Assembly (NCBI GenBank): GCA_000237975.1
Contig: CP003179.1
Coordinates: 2,046,001 to 2,110,000 of the forward strand
Length of the DNA: 64,000 bases
Direction of reading: 5' to 3'
From: Sulfobacillus acidophilus DSM 10332
GTDB lineage: Bacteria; Bacillota; Sulfobacillia; Sulfobacillales; Sulfobacillaceae
Part shown: positions 36,493-51,884 of the stretch, piece after piece
Numbering within the stretch: the first letter of the stretch is position 1
Layout: the number at the start of each line of letters is the position of its first letter
Notes under the pieces: generated by a model
Seen by the model: only the letters and a program-made list of their open reading frames with translations
Told to the model about the DNA's origin: nothing
The model's database searches: none
Position numbers and translations under genes: made by a program

Positions 36493-37629
36493 CTACCGCA
36501 TCCCGAGGAGTAGCTCCGTGACCAACTGATCGAGCTCTTCGTAGGCATATCCCCGTTCCCGCCACCAATTCAAACTCGCCTCGCCGTCGATGGCCGGGCC
36601 TTCGCTATGAAGCTTTTGGATACGGGCCAGGACCGCTTGGATCTCGCCGTCTTGATGAAACCGACGGACTTTCTCGCGATACGCCAAATAGCTCCGCATG
36701 GATCCCCGGGCAAACTGCCACACCCCCTCGATATCCTCCGTCCGGTAGGGATGCGCGTCGAAATGCCGCGGCCCGTCATATCCGCTATCTTCCAACAGTT
36801 TGACCAAATAGAACGTGCCTTTAAGATCATCCGATCCGAACCGTAAATCTTGATCAAATCGGGCAATCCGCTGATCGTTGAGGTCAATATGGAAAAGTTT
36901 TTGCTGGTCGATGGCCTGGGCCACTTCATGCACAGGATTCAATCCGGCCATTTTCGCATGCGCCACCTCGGGATTGACGCCGACCCGTTCCGCGTGATCC
37001 AGCGTTTGGATAAAGGCCAACATCGATCCCACCGTGGGCAGGTAAATATCGCTACGCGGCTCGTTGGGCTTGGGCTCCAACGCAATCCGCATCGGATAGC
37101 CGTTTCGAATAATGTGATCGGTCAACTCGTTTAGGCTCTCCCGGTACCACCGTAGCGCATCCCGGGGATCCTTGGCCGCATCCACCTCGGCTCCTTCACG
37201 ACCGCCCCAAAGGACAAAAATCGTCGCCCCCAACTCGTGTCCCAGATCCATGGCCCGCTTGGCCTTGTCCACGGCAAAGCGACGGACCGCGGGAGCAGCC
37301 GACGTTAAGGCGCCGTCTTTAAAGACAGGATCATAAAACAAATTGACCGTGACCATCGGAACCGCCAGATGATGGTCGTCTAACGCCGCCTTGAATTCGC
37401 GCACAATGCGGTCCCGCTCCGCCGGTGTGGCATCGATGGGCACTAAGTCATTGTCGTGAAGGGTTACCCCATAAGCGCCCAGCCGACTTAACTCCCGCAC
37501 AATGGTAGTCGGGGCGATCGTCGGACGAACGGCATCACCGAACGGGTCACGCCCCCGATTGCCGACGGTCCATAAGCCAAAAGTAAACCGGTCTTCCGGT
37601 TGCGGTACGAATCGCTCCTGGTCTTCCAC
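36493..37629 (-). CDS. xylA: Xylose isomerase
   Basis: 378 residues, GTG start with GAGGAGGAGA before it. The short class I (actinobacterial-type) form: [17 protein letters not shown] at the start, catalytic His in [15 protein letters not shown], the metal ligands in [21 protein letters not shown] and FHIDLNDQR. Converts D-xylose to D-xylulose. First gene of the operon, with the dyad at 37672-37693 over its likely -10. Confidence 0.96.
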
Positions 37630-45172: not shown

Positions 45173-45844
45173 TTATCGTACCGTGCCCATCACCAAGACC
45201 GGCGATGTCGGTTGCGCCGTGCCTCCCGCCGGTTCGACGGTAATCGCAAAAACTGACGCGTTACGAGGCCGCGGGGGCAAGACATCCGGGCGTTTGGTAA
45301 AAAGACCGGCAGGCAGCGGTTTTCCGCGCACAATCCACCAGCCCTCATACACATGAGCCGGCGGCAGCGAAGGTAAATGGGTCGCCCAAATGACCGCTCG
45401 ATTACCCCGTACCACCAGCACGGCATGATACGCTCCCGACACCGGGGAGGAGAGCTCAACCACCTGACCTTGACTCATCAGGGCTAAAATCGCGTCTTTC
45501 TGAAGCGCCTCTTGATGATAGCGATAAGCCACGCCCCAACCGCTCACCGCCAGAATGACGGCAGCCGCCCACCCGAGCCACGGGCCCACCCGAAAACGGC
45601 GGCGCGTGGGCGACCCCGTGCCCTGCAGCCGGGCTTGAAAAGCTTCTCGCATGGCGGCATGCCCTTGCCAATCCGGCTCCACCGTTGTCGGTTGGAGATG
45701 CGATAAAATCGCCTGATAATCCTGCCAAGCGCTACGGCATTCCTTGCAGGCCTCTAAATGGGATAAAATCGCGTCCTGGTCATCGGTTGGCAATCCACTA
45801 GCCGCCCAAATCGGTAAATTTAATTGAATGTCGTCATGCGTCAT
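45173..45844 (-). CDS. Anti-sigma factor with zinc-finger head
   Basis: About 223 residues starting at 45844 (an ATG at 45850 is also possible), overlapping the sigma gene. The cytoplasmic head has the zinc anti-sigma motif HLEACKEC; a membrane helix WLGWAAAVILAVSGWGVAY follows, then an extracytoplasmic RskA-like domain (HLPSLPPAHVYEGWWIVRGKPLPAG). It should hold the ECF sigma factor until an envelope signal arrives. Confidence 0.88.
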   Translation of the reverse strand: MTHDDIQLNLPIWAASGLPTDDQDAILSHLEACKECRSAWQDYQAILSHLQPTTVEPDWQGHAAMREAFQARLQGTGSPTRRRFRVGPWLGWAAAVILAVSGWGVAYRYHQEALQKDAILALMSQGQVVELSSPVSGAYHAVLVVRGNRAVIWATHLPSLPPAHVYEGWWIVRGKPLPAGLFTKRPDVLPPRPRNASVFAITVEPAGGTAQPTSPVLVMGTVR

Positions 45845-46391
45845 GGCCATCAACCCCCACCATTCGCCGCAATTTTTCCAATCCCAACCGAAGCCGGGTT
45901 TTCGCCGTGCCGACCGGAATTTGCTGGCGTCGAGCGGCCTCTTCGGCCGTTTGCCCCCGTAAATAAACGGCCGAAACCATTTGTTTTTGGGATTCCGGCA
46001 ATTGCTCCAACGCGTCATACAATTGTTCGCGGGTATCGCGGGCAATGACGGCTTGTTCAATATTATCGGCAGCCGCCAAGCCAACCCCCGCCTCCTCAAT
46101 CTCAACCGTCGGGGCGCGATTTTGGAGACGGCGGAGTCGATCAATCGCGCGACTTCGCGCGATGGTCATCAACCAGGCCGTTACCGGCGCCCGGCCGGCA
46201 TCATAGAGCGACGCCGATTTCCACACCTGCCAAAAAACGTCCTGAATGACCTCGTCCGCTTCAACCCGGTCGTTAATGAGTTTCCGGCAATATCCCGCGA
46301 CCAGACCGAAGTAGCGGTCATAGAAAGCCATCATGGCATCTTGATTGCCGGACGCGATGCGGGACAAAAGCTCTTGATCCGTTTCACCCAT
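45834..46391 (-). CDS. ECF RNA polymerase sigma factor
   Basis: 185 residues from the ATG at 46391 (ACGGAG upstream). Region 2 (YDRYFGLVAGYCRKLINDRVEADEVIQDVFWQVW) and region 4 (LPESQKQMVSAVYLRGQTAEEAARRQQIPVGTAKTRL) are clear. SigK-like type. Coupled to its anti-sigma gene downstream, with a membrane-protein gene upstream. Confidence 0.94.
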   Translation of the reverse strand: MGETDQELLSRIASGNQDAMMAFYDRYFGLVAGYCRKLINDRVEADEVIQDVFWQVWKSASLYDAGRAPVTAWLMTIARSRAIDRLRRLQNRAPTVEIEEAGVGLAAADNIEQAVIARDTREQLYDALEQLPESQKQMVSAVYLRGQTAEEAARRQQIPVGTAKTRLRLGLEKLRRMVGVDGHDA

Positions 46392-46476
46392 GCGTTGACT
46401 CCGTTGCTCACCGTCATTTACGAAATTCGATTCGCGAAAAACCCGCAAAAATCCTCTAATTTGTCCTACGTTTCCG

Positions 46477-47376
46477 TTAATCATGGCCGACAATCCGCCG
46501 CATGGCCGGAAACGGAGTGAAACCGCGCGGTTGCCGACGGACGCCCGGCATGGTGGATCCGATTACGACGGCAAGAGCCATTGCCACTAAGGGCGGCGTA
46601 TTCGGATCGGTTCCGGTCCCTCCTAGAACGCCAAAGTCCATTCCCGTCCACCACATGGTCGCCAATACCCATCCGGTCAGCGCCCACGTCGACCAATGCC
46701 GAGGAAAAGTGGTCCAAAGGACCGCCAACACACCCCAAAGCCCCGTCATGACCTCACGCCCCCACCCGGGATACACGGTGAGCCAATGCCCCAGGAGATA
46801 TTCCGGGCGGGACACCCATGCCGGTTGAGGACTCTGAGCCATTTGGATCAGTGCGGGTCCCATGTGCCGCCCGGCCACTTGACCCAGAAAAAGACCCAAT
46901 CCCCAATACCCCCGCATCAGCGCTATTGCCGCAGATTCTACCGTATCCGGCGCGAAAAGCAATATCGCCGACCAGACGACATATAAGAGGGCCGATCCGG
47001 GTGCGCCGGTCAAAAGACTCGCGGACGGTAGTAAAAGACCGCCGAAGCCTTCCCCGAATATCCACACGACGAGAGCCCATCCCAACGAGAGCCAAAGCCC
47101 CCAACGGTACCAACCGGGTCGTTTCATCAATAAGAGCCCGCCGATGCCCAATTGCAGGAAAGCCGCCAGTCCGTTCGCCCAGATTCCCCCCTCGCGCCAC
47201 AGATGGATGCCCTCCCGAAGTAAAAACAGGACCACCGGTGGTTGACCGACGACGACCGGTTGAAGGACTTGGTGCCAAAACAGCGGACTAAACATGGCCG
47301 GTTGACACTGCAAGAGCCCGTCGACCACCCATAAGATACCCAATACCTGGCGAATTCGCGTAGCCACAGATCCCAT
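46477..47376 (-). CDS. Polytopic membrane protein of unknown function
   Basis: 299 residues with GAAGGAGGAAG site. About eight hydrophobic segments; motifs such as GEGFGGLLLPSASLLTGAPGSALLY recur in uncharacterised actinobacterial and Firmicute membrane proteins. It leads the sigma/anti-sigma genes (85 bp gap), so may belong to the signal that the pair responds to. I do not recognise a named family. Confidence 0.65.
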   Translation of the reverse strand: MGSVATRIRQVLGILWVVDGLLQCQPAMFSPLFWHQVLQPVVVGQPPVVLFLLREGIHLWREGGIWANGLAAFLQLGIGGLLLMKRPGWYRWGLWLSLGWALVVWIFGEGFGGLLLPSASLLTGAPGSALLYVVWSAILLFAPDTVESAAIALMRGYWGLGLFLGQVAGRHMGPALIQMAQSPQPAWVSRPEYLLGHWLTVYPGWGREVMTGLWGVLAVLWTTFPRHWSTWALTGWVLATMWWTGMDFGVLGGTGTDPNTPPLVAMALAVVIGSTMPGVRRQPRGFTPFPAMRRIVGHD

Positions 47377-47447: not shown

Positions 47448-49871
47448 TTAACGGACGCGGGGTCGACGGGCGAGCCAACCGCCGGTCAGGAGTAATCCCG
47501 CCCCCATCCCCATCAGAGGCAAGATGGGCAGCCCAGTAACCGGCGACGTCGCCCCTTTCACCATCGACGGGGTATTCGTGGCAGGCGGGGTGACCGAGGA
47601 ATTCGCCGCCGCAAATTTAGCCGGAAATTGGCTGACGATCCCTTGGGCTAAATATTGCCCGGCGGTAAACATCGTGCCATACGCCTGTTCCATGGTCGTA
47701 ACCGCGGCCGCGTCGTTACCCTGAACGGCGTCGGTAAACGCCGACGTGATCTGGTTAATGTGGTCTTGCAGCACCGTGGACAACGTCCCCTCGTTTAAAT
47801 AGGGGTTGGCCTTGGCCAGAAACGCGCTAAATTGATTTTTGTAGGCCGTCAAAGAGGTTTGCGCCTCATTGGCCGCTTGGGTATCGCCTGCTTGAATATC
47901 CGCCGCATAAGTCAAGAAGTATTTGTGTTGATTCCACAAGGAGGCAAACGCCTGTCCCGCCGCCGCACCATAAATCCCGCTTATGGCCTGAGTCAACTGG
48001 GCGGTGTTTTGATCCATTAAGTTCATAAACACCGCCGTCCCCACCGGGTTATGGGCATAGGTGGACAGCATCGCCCCTTCTAATGCCACCGCATGTAGGC
48101 CTAATAACGCATCAAGGGACGCGACCAAATTGCCGGTAGGCGTGTTCGGCGACGAGTTGCCAAAAGTTGTCGGGAACTGCTCGGCAAACCCCGTGGCTAG
48201 ATAATCGCCGGCGGTAAACATCAATTGGTAAGCGGCGGTGGTTTCTTGGGCCGCCCCGCTCACATTCCCGTCGGCAAAATCATTAAAGGCCTGAATCTCC
48301 TGGTTAATATGATCCTGCAATACCGCCGACAGGGTGGCCGCGCTAAAATGCGGGTTCAGTTGGGCCAGCACATCGGCAAATTGGTTTTTATAGCGGGTCA
48401 ATGTCGCTTGATCGGCCTCTGCCGCCAACGCATCGCGAGCATAGGTGAAAAAGTATTGATGCTGGTTCCACAAAGCCTCAAACTGTTGGCCGGCCGCCGA
48501 CCCGTATATGCTCGACACGGCGGCCGTCAGCGCTTGCGTGTTTTGGTCCATTTGTGCCATGTAGCCGTCATAAGCGGCCGTGTTCCCCGCGTAGAGCGCT
48601 CGCATGGCCAGTTCCAACAAAACCGCGTGTTCTCCCAATAATTGGTCTAAGGTAATTCGCAAATTCCCGGCCGGGGTCCCGATTTGGGTATTGTCGAACT
48701 TTGAGGGAAATTGGGCTACAATGCCGTTGGCGAGGTAACCGCCGGCGGTAAACATGAGCTGATAATCCTGCATCAGTTCCGCCGCCGCGGCACTGGCATT
48801 CCCGTCCACGTAATCTTGAAAGGCCTGGGTGATTTGGTTGACATGATCTTGCAACACCGTGGAGAGCGTGCTTTCGCTCAAATGGGGGTTCGCCTGGGCC
48901 AAAAACTGACTGAACTGGTTTTTATACTGCGTGAGGAGCGTTTGGGCCTGAGCGGCGGCGGCGCTATTACCGGATTTCACCGCATCGACATAATTGAAGA
49001 ATTCCTGGTGATGGTTCCATAGACTTTGAAAGGCCTGGCCGGCGGATGGGCCATAAATCCCGCTCACGGCCTGGGTTAAAAGAGCCGTGTTGGCATCCAT
49101 TTGGGTCATGTACGCTTGATAGAGCGAGGTATTGCCGGCATATAAGGCTTGCATGGCCAACTCCAGTAATATGGCATGTTCACCCAACAGCTGATCCAAA
49201 CCGGCCTGGAGATTTACCGCCGCGGTGTCGGGACCGGTGGTTCCGAACTTCTGCGGGAATTGGGCGGCAATGCCACCGGCCAAATAGTCGCCGGCCGTAA
49301 ACATGAGATTGTCGGCTTGCACCAACTCAGCGGTCGCCGCGGCGTCATTACCGCCGGCATAGTCATTGAAGGCCTGGGTGATTTGGTTGATATGATCTTG
49401 CAACACCGTGGAGAGCGTGCTTTCGCTCAAATGGGGATTGGCCCCGGCCAGAAATTGGCTAAACTGATTTTTATAAAACGTGAGCCGGTTTTGAGCCTGG
49501 TTCTCCCCGCGCATCGCTTCGACATAACTGAAGAAATAGCGGTGCTGGTTCCATAATTGTTCAAAGGCGTTCCCGGTTTGCGTCCCATAAAGCTTACTCA
49601 CGGCAGCGGTCAATGCCGCCGTATTTTGCATCATGGCCTGATCCAGCGCTTCGGTTAAGGCGGTATTCCCTGCATAGAGCGCGTCCATTCGCATGGCCAA
49701 TAATAGCGCATGTTCACTGAGCAGTTGATCCAAATTGGCCCGTAAGGTTACGGCCGGCGTGACGGCTTGAACCCCGGCGGGACTCGAGGCGGCAAATGTC
49801 GTGGCGACCGGAGCCGCAATCATACCGGCACTGAATAAGGCGGCGCCGGCTATTTTCATCCATGAGTTCAT
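47448..49871 (-). CDS. Surface protein with four His-containing helical repeats
   Basis: 807 residues from the ATG at 49871 (AGGAGGT). Signal peptide 1-27 (cut near TTFA-ASS). Four tandem repeats of about 178 residues (roughly 43-212, 221-392, 404-570, 580-754), each predicted mostly helical, with LDQLLGEH, YAGNT, WNQH, YKNQF, NPHLSE and LQDHINQ. Conserved His are at 54/110/147/160, 232/288/330/343, 415/471/508/521 and, in repeat 4, only 593/649/704. The end has SPVTG (776-780), a hydrophobic helix and RRPRVR, resembling a sortase sorting signal. A sortase gene is divergent. The helices may bind metal, but that is inference. Confidence 0.8.
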   Translation of the reverse strand: MNSWMKIAGAALFSAGMIAAPVATTFAASSPAGVQAVTPAVTLRANLDQLLSEHALLLAMRMDALYAGNTALTEALDQAMMQNTAALTAAVSKLYGTQTGNAFEQLWNQHRYFFSYVEAMRGENQAQNRLTFYKNQFSQFLAGANPHLSESTLSTVLQDHINQITQAFNDYAGGNDAAATAELVQADNLMFTAGDYLAGGIAAQFPQKFGTTGPDTAAVNLQAGLDQLLGEHAILLELAMQALYAGNTSLYQAYMTQMDANTALLTQAVSGIYGPSAGQAFQSLWNHHQEFFNYVDAVKSGNSAAAAQAQTLLTQYKNQFSQFLAQANPHLSESTLSTVLQDHVNQITQAFQDYVDGNASAAAAELMQDYQLMFTAGGYLANGIVAQFPSKFDNTQIGTPAGNLRITLDQLLGEHAVLLELAMRALYAGNTAAYDGYMAQMDQNTQALTAAVSSIYGSAAGQQFEALWNQHQYFFTYARDALAAEADQATLTRYKNQFADVLAQLNPHFSAATLSAVLQDHINQEIQAFNDFADGNVSGAAQETTAAYQLMFTAGDYLATGFAEQFPTTFGNSSPNTPTGNLVASLDALLGLHAVALEGAMLSTYAHNPVGTAVFMNLMDQNTAQLTQAISGIYGAAAGQAFASLWNQHKYFLTYAADIQAGDTQAANEAQTSLTAYKNQFSAFLAKANPYLNEGTLSTVLQDHINQITSAFTDAVQGNDAAAVTTMEQAYGTMFTAGQYLAQGIVSQFPAKFAAANSSVTPPATNTPSMVKGATSPVTGLPILPLMGMGAGLLLTGGWLARRPRVR

Positions 49872-50023
49872 TGAATCTGACCTCCTTTGCGATTTCATTA
49901 GCCCATACGACGGCCGACCCGGATGCGATCTCTCCGAGCAGAAAAAATTTTTTTCCTAAGCAAAGATCGTTTGCCGGTGTTCTCGTCGTAGAGACCAATA
50001 AATACCGAGAAAGGGGTCAATTC

Positions 50024-51097
50024 ATGTTACGACGCCGCCAATGGGGATTCGGTCTCGCCGGAATCGGTTTGGGACTCATCGCGTTACCTATCTGGATTGG
50101 CCCGGCAGCCCGGGTCGCTGCAACCCAGCTGACCCGGCCTATGCCGGGGTCCCTTTCCACCCGTCGTCTACCAACGGCGGCCCCCGTGATACCGGCGCCG
50201 CCCAACGGTTCGGTGGTCGCCCAGCTCGTTATTCCCGCGTTGCGGCTCAATGTCCCGGTGGTACAAGGTACCGGATTCGGTCAACTCTTTTTCAATCCGG
50301 GCCATTATGCCGGTTCGGTGTTACCCGGAGAACCGGGTACCAGCGTCATTGCCGCCCATAATGCCACGTTTTTTCGCCATCTGAATGCGCTTCATCGGGG
50401 CAGCCGGATAACGGTCGAAACGCGACAGGGAACCTTTTTATTTGCCGTCACCGGCGCTCAAGTGGTTTCCGATACGGCCGGTTTGCCGAACACCGTCGCC
50501 CCTAGCCTGGATCTCGAGGCGTGCTATCCCTTAAATGCCCTTTATTTCACCCCCGACCGCTATATCGTCTTTAGCCGCCTCATCCGGTCCTCCACCGGGA
50601 AGCCTGTTCCCCTGTTGCCATCTGCCAAGCCGTCTGTTACCCGGTACCATGCCAATATTCCTACCAGCATCGAAAGCCGCTTTTCTTTGTCCCTGGCGGA
50701 CAATTCCTTGCCCATGGGAAGCCTCACCTATCATGCTCCCCACACCGCCGAGGTCCTGGCCTTTGAAGAGTCGCCGAACCCGCTGGAAGCGGAAACGGTG
50801 GCCATTTCATTATGGCTCGCCTATGTTGACGCCAGCCGGAGCGGCAATCGGTCCGCACTGGCGGCATTAGGTGTCCGGCAAAATCAGAATCCCTACTGGC
50901 AAGCGCGCTCTGTCGTCTTCGAGGCGCCCTTAAACGTTCAGATGACCGTCACCGGAACCGGTCTTCCAATCCGTATCATCATGACAAACGCCCTCGTCCG
51001 GATTAACGGCGAACCTTTTCAAACCCAGATGACCATAACGATTACGGGAACGACCCTCACCATTCAGGAGGTCGGCACGGCACCGTCAATATTGTAG
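50024..51097 (+). CDS. Sortase with long C-terminal extension
   Basis: 357 residues from the ATG at 50024 (GAAAGGGG). N-terminal membrane anchor (about 8-25), Pro-rich linker, then a sortase domain (65-190): His112 in VIAAHNATFF, Cys167 in LDLEACYPL and Arg179 in TPDRYIVFSR. The TLxTC of most sortases is replaced by LEAC, nearest to class D/E types. Residues 190-357 form an extra domain with beta-rich pattern that I do not recognise. Divergent from the repeat protein, its likely substrate. Confidence 0.85.
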   Translation: MLRRRQWGFGLAGIGLGLIALPIWIGPAARVAATQLTRPMPGSLSTRRLPTAAPVIPAPPNGSVVAQLVIPALRLNVPVVQGTGFGQLFFNPGHYAGSVLPGEPGTSVIAAHNATFFRHLNALHRGSRITVETRQGTFLFAVTGAQVVSDTAGLPNTVAPSLDLEACYPLNALYFTPDRYIVFSRLIRSSTGKPVPLLPSAKPSVTRYHANIPTSIESRFSLSLADNSLPMGSLTYHAPHTAEVLAFEESPNPLEAETVAISLWLAYVDASRSGNRSALAALGVRQNQNPYWQARSVVFEAPLNVQMTVTGTGLPIRIIMTNALVRINGEPFQTQMTITITGTTLTIQEVGTAPSIL

Positions 51098-51206: not shown

Positions 51207-51647
51207 CTAATTGTCGTGACGATTCGCTTTCTGGGCGTTATCGTGTGACGAATCTTGATGATGAGAGCCCTGATCTTTCCCCTCGACATTGAGATGGGCC
51301 TCAATACCCATTGCGACCCATGCTTTGTTTTTAGACACCACCTGAGCCGTCACCGCAAGCTGATGGTTATTTAACGCCGTCATGATACCGGCAACGGTGC
51401 CCTGGGCTTCGAGAGAAACGCGGGTGCTCGGAGTCAGATCGATCGTCACGGTTTTTCCGGACGTCGTCTTGACGGTAATGGAAGGACCGGTCAGCGAACC
51501 GGTTTCAAACACCCCGCGGATCACCTGATGGGTTTGGTTTCCATGATCCTCTTGGCCCGGATGGTCATGAGCAAAGGCCACGCCCGACACCAGGATTAAA
51601 CTCCCGGCGACCGCCACCCCCGCCAACTTTGTGGCGATTTGTGTCAT
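51207..51647 (-). CDS. Small secreted DUF5666-like protein with His-rich ends
   Basis: 146 residues from the ATG at 51647, which suits the AAGGTG site. Signal peptide 1-25 ending AFA-HDH. The middle (GVFETGSLTGPSITVKTTSG ... VTIDLTPSTRVSLE) resembles the small beta-barrel of DUF5666. His/Asp/Gln clusters follow the signal and form the C-terminus (GSHHQDSSHDN), hinting at metal binding. No clear operon partner. Confidence 0.7.
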   Translation of the reverse strand: MTQIATKLAGVAVAGSLILVSGVAFAHDHPGQEDHGNQTHQVIRGVFETGSLTGPSITVKTTSGKTVTIDLTPSTRVSLEAQGTVAGIMTALNNHQLAVTAQVVSKNKAWVAMGIEAHLNVEGKDQGSHHQDSSHDNAQKANRHDN

Positions 51648-51884
51648 AGCCATCACCTTCTTTCGTTGGATTTCGTCACCAAAGGGGATCATTCGTTTCG
51701 CTCGACTAGACTCCTTTTTTGAACAGCAACTTTTTGCGCGAACCGATTCAAGCACGCCCCTTCAGTATGACGTACTCGGTTGGGACCCATTCACATAGAA
51801 ACCCAGCGCGGGCGGATGGGAACGAGCAAGGCGCATCTGTTCGTGAAATGTCTCTGTTATTGGCTATTGGTGCTGTACTCCGTT

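Follow-up and report, generated by a model that had tools for sequence, protein, structure and literature searches.

An unclassified sortase encoded beside its probable single substrate, a four-repeat surface protein with invariant histidines, in Sulfobacillus acidophilus

A sortase gene clustered with that of its own substrate on the cell surface is known from the SrtB-IsdC heme uptake system, in which the substrate binds a metal cofactor (PMC3297441). Sorting signals of the SPxTG form have also been established: the substrates of C. difficile SrtB carry SPKTG or PPKTG, and SPKTG is essential for wall attachment there; C. difficile proteins with SPSTG and SPQTG are not anchored in vivo (PMC5569036). 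A locus of S. acidophilus DSM 10332, encoding a secreted repeat protein (REP) and a divergently oriented sortase (SRT), resembles both systems. The signal of REP has Ser for Leu in xPxTG, as in C. difficile, and SRT is encoded with its own surface substrate, as in SrtB-IsdC. It differs in that C. difficile SrtB belongs to another sortase class and has several substrates per enzyme, and in that SrtB-IsdC works with NEAT domains and heme transporters, whereas the REP locus has six-helix bundles, an ECF sigma factor and no such transporter. Since SPxTG signals and substrate-linked sortases were already known, the locus is a variant of the known sortase-substrate arrangement. What is new here is the unclassified sortase and the undescribed domain; the novelty claimed in the preliminary description of this DNA holds for these two and not for the signal.

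The window, i.e. the whole stretch of 64,000 bp that was analysed (positions 2,046,001-2,110,000 of contig CP003179.1), contains the features listed in Table 1. The REP frame (ORF 47448-49898, minus strand) has its likely start at ATG 49870, with an AAGGAGG site just upstream, and on the same strand REP is followed by MEM, SIG, ANTI and an MFS protein. For SRT, ATG 50024 is the most likely start rather than 49862. The product of a gene convergent with SRT, at 51207-51755 on the minus strand, is secreted and has ends rich in His and Asp (AHDHPGQEDHGNQTH..., ...GSHHQDSSHDN).

Table 1. Features of the REP-SRT locus (window positions) and the BETA locus elsewhere in the genome
Feature	Position	Strand	Remarks
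ANTI, anti-sigma factor	45173..45841	-	zf-HC2 + RskA_C
SIG, ECF sigma factor	45834..46493	-	SigK-like by NCBIfam best match
MEM, hydrophobic (membrane) protein, 299 aa	46477..47376	-	No Pfam/NCBIfam match; kept in most REP-sortase loci
REP, secreted repeat protein, 807 aa	47448..49870	-	Signal peptide, four six-helix repeats (modelled), sorting signal
REP C-terminal sorting signal	47451..47552	-	ATSPVTGLP + hydrophobic helix + RRPRVR; SPVTG codons 47532-47546
REP repeat 4	47601..48134	-	Conserved His codons 48093-48095, 47925-47927, 47760-47762
REP repeat 3	48144..48668	-	Conserved His codons 48627-48629, 48459-48461, 48309-48311
REP repeat 2	48678..49217	-	Conserved His codons 49176-49178, 49008-49010, 48843-48845
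REP repeat 1	49227..49751	-	Conserved His codons 49710-49712, 49542-49544, 49392-49394
ECF-type promoter element	49906..49930	-	GATCG-N16-CGTA, 35 bases upstream of REP start
SRT, sortase, 357 aa	50024..51097	+	N-terminal membrane helix; His112/Cys167 (LEAC)/Arg179; C-terminal extra domain aa ~205-357
BETA + third sortase	L043:5718-7887 (genome 798 kb)		ATSPVTGLP tail as in REP; sortase begins 2 bases after BETA

REP consists mainly of four repeats of 175-180 aa each (~178). Its C-terminus, ATSPVTGLPILPLMGMGAGLLLTGGWLARRPRVR, has the tripartite layout of LPXTG-type signals (xPxTG motif, hydrophobic stretch and basic tail), and the stop codon lies 31 residues past the motif Pro. The first motif position is Ser instead of Leu; relatives have Ser, Ala or Thr. 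The four repeats and the SPVTG tail with its helix and basic end had been recognised in the preliminary description, and both are borne out. The label "His-rich" was overstated, as His makes up 17 of the 807 residues of REP (2.1%; Cys is absent); its interest is in the placement of these His, not in their number.

That the divergent neighbour encodes a sortase, as had been proposed, is clear from its match to Pfam PF04203 (71.1 bits, cut-off 26.6; E = 9e-20), which places it in the sortase superfamily, and from its fold: the SRT model, of moderate quality (pLDDT 69), matched solved PDB sortases with Foldseek (E = 1e-10) and VIA (Z up to 16.3, 131 residues, rmsd 2.1). His112, Cys167 and Arg179 are invariant across 19 aligned sortases. 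LEAC, previously described as an unusual active-site motif, indeed contains Cys167; its aligned counterpart in B. anthracis SrtD is LTTC. Within the family LEAC is the standard form and LVAC and LIAC are variants, while more distant members have LITC, LVTC, LETC and LESC, among others.

The best profile class was class D (NF058671/NF033746; E = 3e-23), which is like SRT in the core and in the His/Cys/Arg residues, and the class D structures of B. anthracis SrtD (2ln7) and C. perfringens SrtD (4d70) have a fold akin to SRT (Z 14.5-15.9). However, SRT falls far below both class D cut-offs (82.4 vs 140 bits and 76 vs 165 bits) and differs from this class by LxAC for LTTC, by an extra C-terminal domain of ~150 aa and by the SPVTG-type tail of its partner. 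All family members examined have this extra domain, extending ~165-195 residues beyond the Cys. In the SRT model it is mostly well predicted, with helices at 242-281 followed by strands at 303-354 in a long antiparallel sheet. The domain gave no sequence match, and the list of SRT fold matches was filled by the sortase core only; from the order of its secondary structure the domain is perhaps NTF2-like.

To find other tails of this type, as had been suggested, the genome was scanned for P(V/T/A/I/M)TG-x-P. This gave 27 DNA matches (19 for the reversed pattern), of which only 3 were true C-terminal signals, closing a long frame and accompanied by a hydrophobic stretch and a basic tail. They belong to REP, to its decayed copy and to BETA. 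The genome contains exactly three Pfam sortases, and one signal lies beside each. BETA is a protein of 366 aa that ends in ATSPVTGLPLAPIVGGG; its body is unrelated to that of REP and has two repeats of ~145 aa without a Pfam match. The decayed copy belongs to a second such locus at a distance of 46 kb (L042:4291-7764; genome 2140293-2143760), in which the sortase (63% identical), sigma and anti-sigma genes are intact; the repeat protein has lost its signal peptide and has a frameshift after repeat 1, and its promoter element is kept. A homologue of the 51207-51755 protein is found at the equivalent place in this second copy.

Within the class, 154 genomes were surveyed, and SRT falls in a clade of 28 sortases (support 98/95). 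A protein with an AT(S/T/A)PxTG-type tail adjoins 26 of these 28; 9 are REP proteins and 17 are of the BETA type, the most frequent sortase partner in the class, and one of the 26 tails (L058) is the variant SVSTG. The two exceptions are a sortase near a contig end (L067) and one that is unlinked to its REP substrate in genome G099 (L045), so adjacency is not absolute. In the tree the REP sortases are nested within the BETA sortases, from which the REP and BETA bodies seem to have been swapped under one shared tail. Full REP domains are present in 12 genomes of the class: 9 combine the tail with a REP-clade sortase, and in the other 3 (G097, G109 and G110) both are absent (Fisher exact 1 in 220, the genomes being related and not independent).

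The one-to-one pairing in the genome and the co-conservation in relatives strongly support the dedicated sortase-substrate pair that had been postulated. Relatives lacking SPVTG, named earlier as an argument against it, do exist, but they are without a sortase of this clade or are anchored differently. Judged from genomics, SRT probably serves essentially REP only, and cleavage of SPVTG with attachment to the wall is highly probable. A separate sortase clade (L076-L080; LITC/LVTC) lies beside TGxPWAG-type tails, one partner (L079) being ice-binding-like (PF11999). In a sister clade (L061:6131-7051, L074:7909-9078, L073:8231-9460) the tail of the neighbour is either ATSPVTG or degenerate (ATSVETG, ATDVHAG), which looks like a motif that drifts together with its enzyme.

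A single repeat (repeat 2) was modelled with high confidence as a six-helix bundle (pLDDT 92.2, pTM 0.85; helices 3-26, 30-55, 57-81, 85-109, 115-137 and 141-169), which backs the helical bundle proposed earlier. We aligned 54 domains, from Sulfobacillia to Bacilli, and kept a separate held-out set of 38. In the alignment His14 is invariant in all 52 domains with residues there, and His70, His125 and Gln169 in all 54; the three His are kept in 38/38 held-out domains. Of the "three to four" conserved His described before, three are thus invariant, and the fourth (NPH) occurs in 3 of the 4 repeats and is not kept in relatives. A different extra His, in helix 6, is present in all 38 held-out Bacilli domains and absent from the repeats in the window.

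Each of the three His lies at most one residue from the midpoint of helix 1, 3 or 5 and points 9, 1 and 33 degrees, respectively, off the hydrophobic face of its helix; the scatter over the surface that would have spoken against a binding role was not seen by sequence. Asn43, Tyr98 and Met155 are at the matching level of helices 2, 4 and 6. The placement of the His, midway along helices 1, 3 and 5 and on their buried sides, suggests that, with these residues, they form one buried layer in the bundle. No Pfam or NCBIfam family covered the domain in profile searches. Searching PDB sequences with a profile of the repeats gave no convincing match, Foldseek with the repeat model gave none at E <= 0.001, and the best VIA-align matches were designed proteins and rhodopsins (Z 7-10), as for unrelated helical bundles. 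In the open-access literature no account of the repeat domain or of Sulfobacillus sortases was found.

SIG has sigma-70 regions 2 and 4 but lacks region 3, and the adjacent gene encodes a zf-HC2/RskA_C protein. The pair is like SigK-RskA (best NCBIfam match of SIG to SigK, E = 1e-42), but SIG scores 146 bits where the SigK cut-off is 226, and its presumed target is a repeat protein not described before. Homologues of SIG and ANTI adjoin REP in most Sulfobacillia loci, and also in L127, L128 and L131. An exact GATC(C/G)-N16-CGT(A/T) element is present upstream of 17 of the 20 multi-repeat genes, against no more than 2 for other spacings and a mean of 0.09 in shuffles. Of the 19 held-out genes 12 have it (other spacings at most 4); it is missing from 3 and 7 genes of the two sets, respectively. 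Among the single-domain genes 9 could be placed, and none of these has an exact copy; a tenth gene could not be anchored.

Elsewhere in the genome, beyond the two REP copies, the strict element occurs at four sites, none at a sensible promoter position; one of the four is inside an oxidoreductase-like frame. Two looser sites at 36680-36836 of the window were dismissed, being at chance rate. A second copy of the element faces the SRT-MEM genes in L044, and the element precedes SIG in L183 and L184, which is consistent with autoregulation. The REP relatives in L183 and L184 have no sorting signal, nor has the one in L182. Promoter and gene linkage are observed; that SIG controls REP through this promoter is likely.

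Of 398 genomes sampled from the phylum, 17 encode the repeat domain, and in one order (that of genome G317) 52 of 150 genomes do, with 1, 2 or 4 repeats per protein; proteins on Planococcus plasmids are among the relatives. Two-repeat forms from these Bacilli end in MPxTG(M/L)GG (19 of 19 held-out), a tail with weak matches to GVDTG_CTERM, and often lie next to a class F-like sortase (13 of 19); the models for class F and for this signal are NF033748 and NF058571. In these lineages both enzyme and signal differ from those of Sulfobacillus. Other two-repeat forms end in Cu_amine_oxidN1 (PF07833; E = 8e-24 in L127, the remainder by eye), and some of the single-domain forms have a LysM-like N-terminal sequence (by eye). 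From these different tails and from the stalk and LysM-like forms, the same repeat body appears to be held at the surface by several means.

A two-repeat relative on Planococcus versutus plasmid NZ_CP016541.2 is annotated as "copper amine oxidase", a name that it probably owes to fusion proteins carrying the Cu_amine_oxidN1 stalk. A particular connection with metal-rich acidic habitats, which the preliminary description considered, is unsupported: domain and promoter also occur in Planococcus- and Paenibacillus-like Bacilli.

Taken together, we propose that REP is a sortase-anchored, ECF-switched protein acting as a wall-bound binder or sink for a ligand, a reading to which we give a probability of about 0.6. 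The signal peptide would export REP and the C-terminal helix would hold it in the membrane, where the neighbouring sortase would cut SPVTG between T and G and join the protein to the cell wall. Release of the locus ECF sigma factor by the RskA-like anti-sigma factor would switch on REP through GATC(C/G)-N16-CGT(A/T). At the surface, the four bundles could then bind a transition metal or heme-like cofactor through the His layers of helices 1, 3 and 5, for which, going by sequence and model, we see roughly even odds. His-rich stretches near the N-terminus of several Bacilli members (e.g. AEDHGGGHGGNHGGM in L129) and the His-rich product of the gene at 51207-51755, which is secreted too, hint at a metal, without being proof.

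It could be argued that the invariant buried His, which can also serve as a structural polar layer, form hydrogen bonds that set the register of the bundle, and that REP is a spacer, adhesin or protective coat without cofactor, made during envelope stress and anchored to the wall. An ECF sigma factor with a membrane anti-sigma factor is a typical envelope-stress arrangement, the repeat number (1, 2 or 4) varies as in spacers, and an unrelated body shares the tail, so that anchoring need not mean metal. However, absolute invariance of the His over very divergent domains exceeds the usual structural need, and the fourth His in helix 6 of the Bacilli domains (38/38), the conserved Asn and Tyr at the His level and the His-rich N-termini of several Bacilli members also argue against this explanation, which we consider less likely.

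Far less probable still is that the repeats are diverged hemerythrins with a di-iron, oxygen-binding site. The whole-protein score for Hemerythrin (PF01814) equals the cut-off of 25.3 bits, but no single stretch exceeds it, and only 1 of 22 single repeats matches (E = 0.016). The repeat has six helices, not four, and the invariant residues do not show the HHxxE or HxxxH ligand pattern; with no single repeat in support, this identity was dropped. Nor does SRT look like a general housekeeping sortase whose many substrates include one that is encoded nearby by chance. The distance between sortase and REP in G099 would fit such an enzyme, and the motif scan could miss signals spelled otherwise; yet three sortases with three recognisable signals, one each, the 26/28 adjacency in the clade and the joint absence of tail and sortase make this improbable.

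The locus is a matched set, in which an unclassified sortase and its probable sole substrate come with a promoter and with a sigma and anti-sigma factor, and the repeat belongs to a domain family with absolutely conserved, apparently buried His that is yet without a Pfam or NCBIfam model. Tentatively, and at somewhat less than even odds, these sequences may represent an unmodelled cofactor-binding multi-His domain across Bacillota, under one ECF promoter and with several independent surface anchors: Sulfobacillia would use the LxAC sortase, Planococcus-like lineages a class F-like one and Paenibacillus-like lineages the Cu_amine_oxidN1 stalk. If true, this would be a general surface response to metal or heme, overlooked since the proteins concerned are annotated as "copper amine oxidase" or as hypothetical. 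Binding of metal or heme by the His layer would thereby give a function to a widespread Gram-positive surface response.
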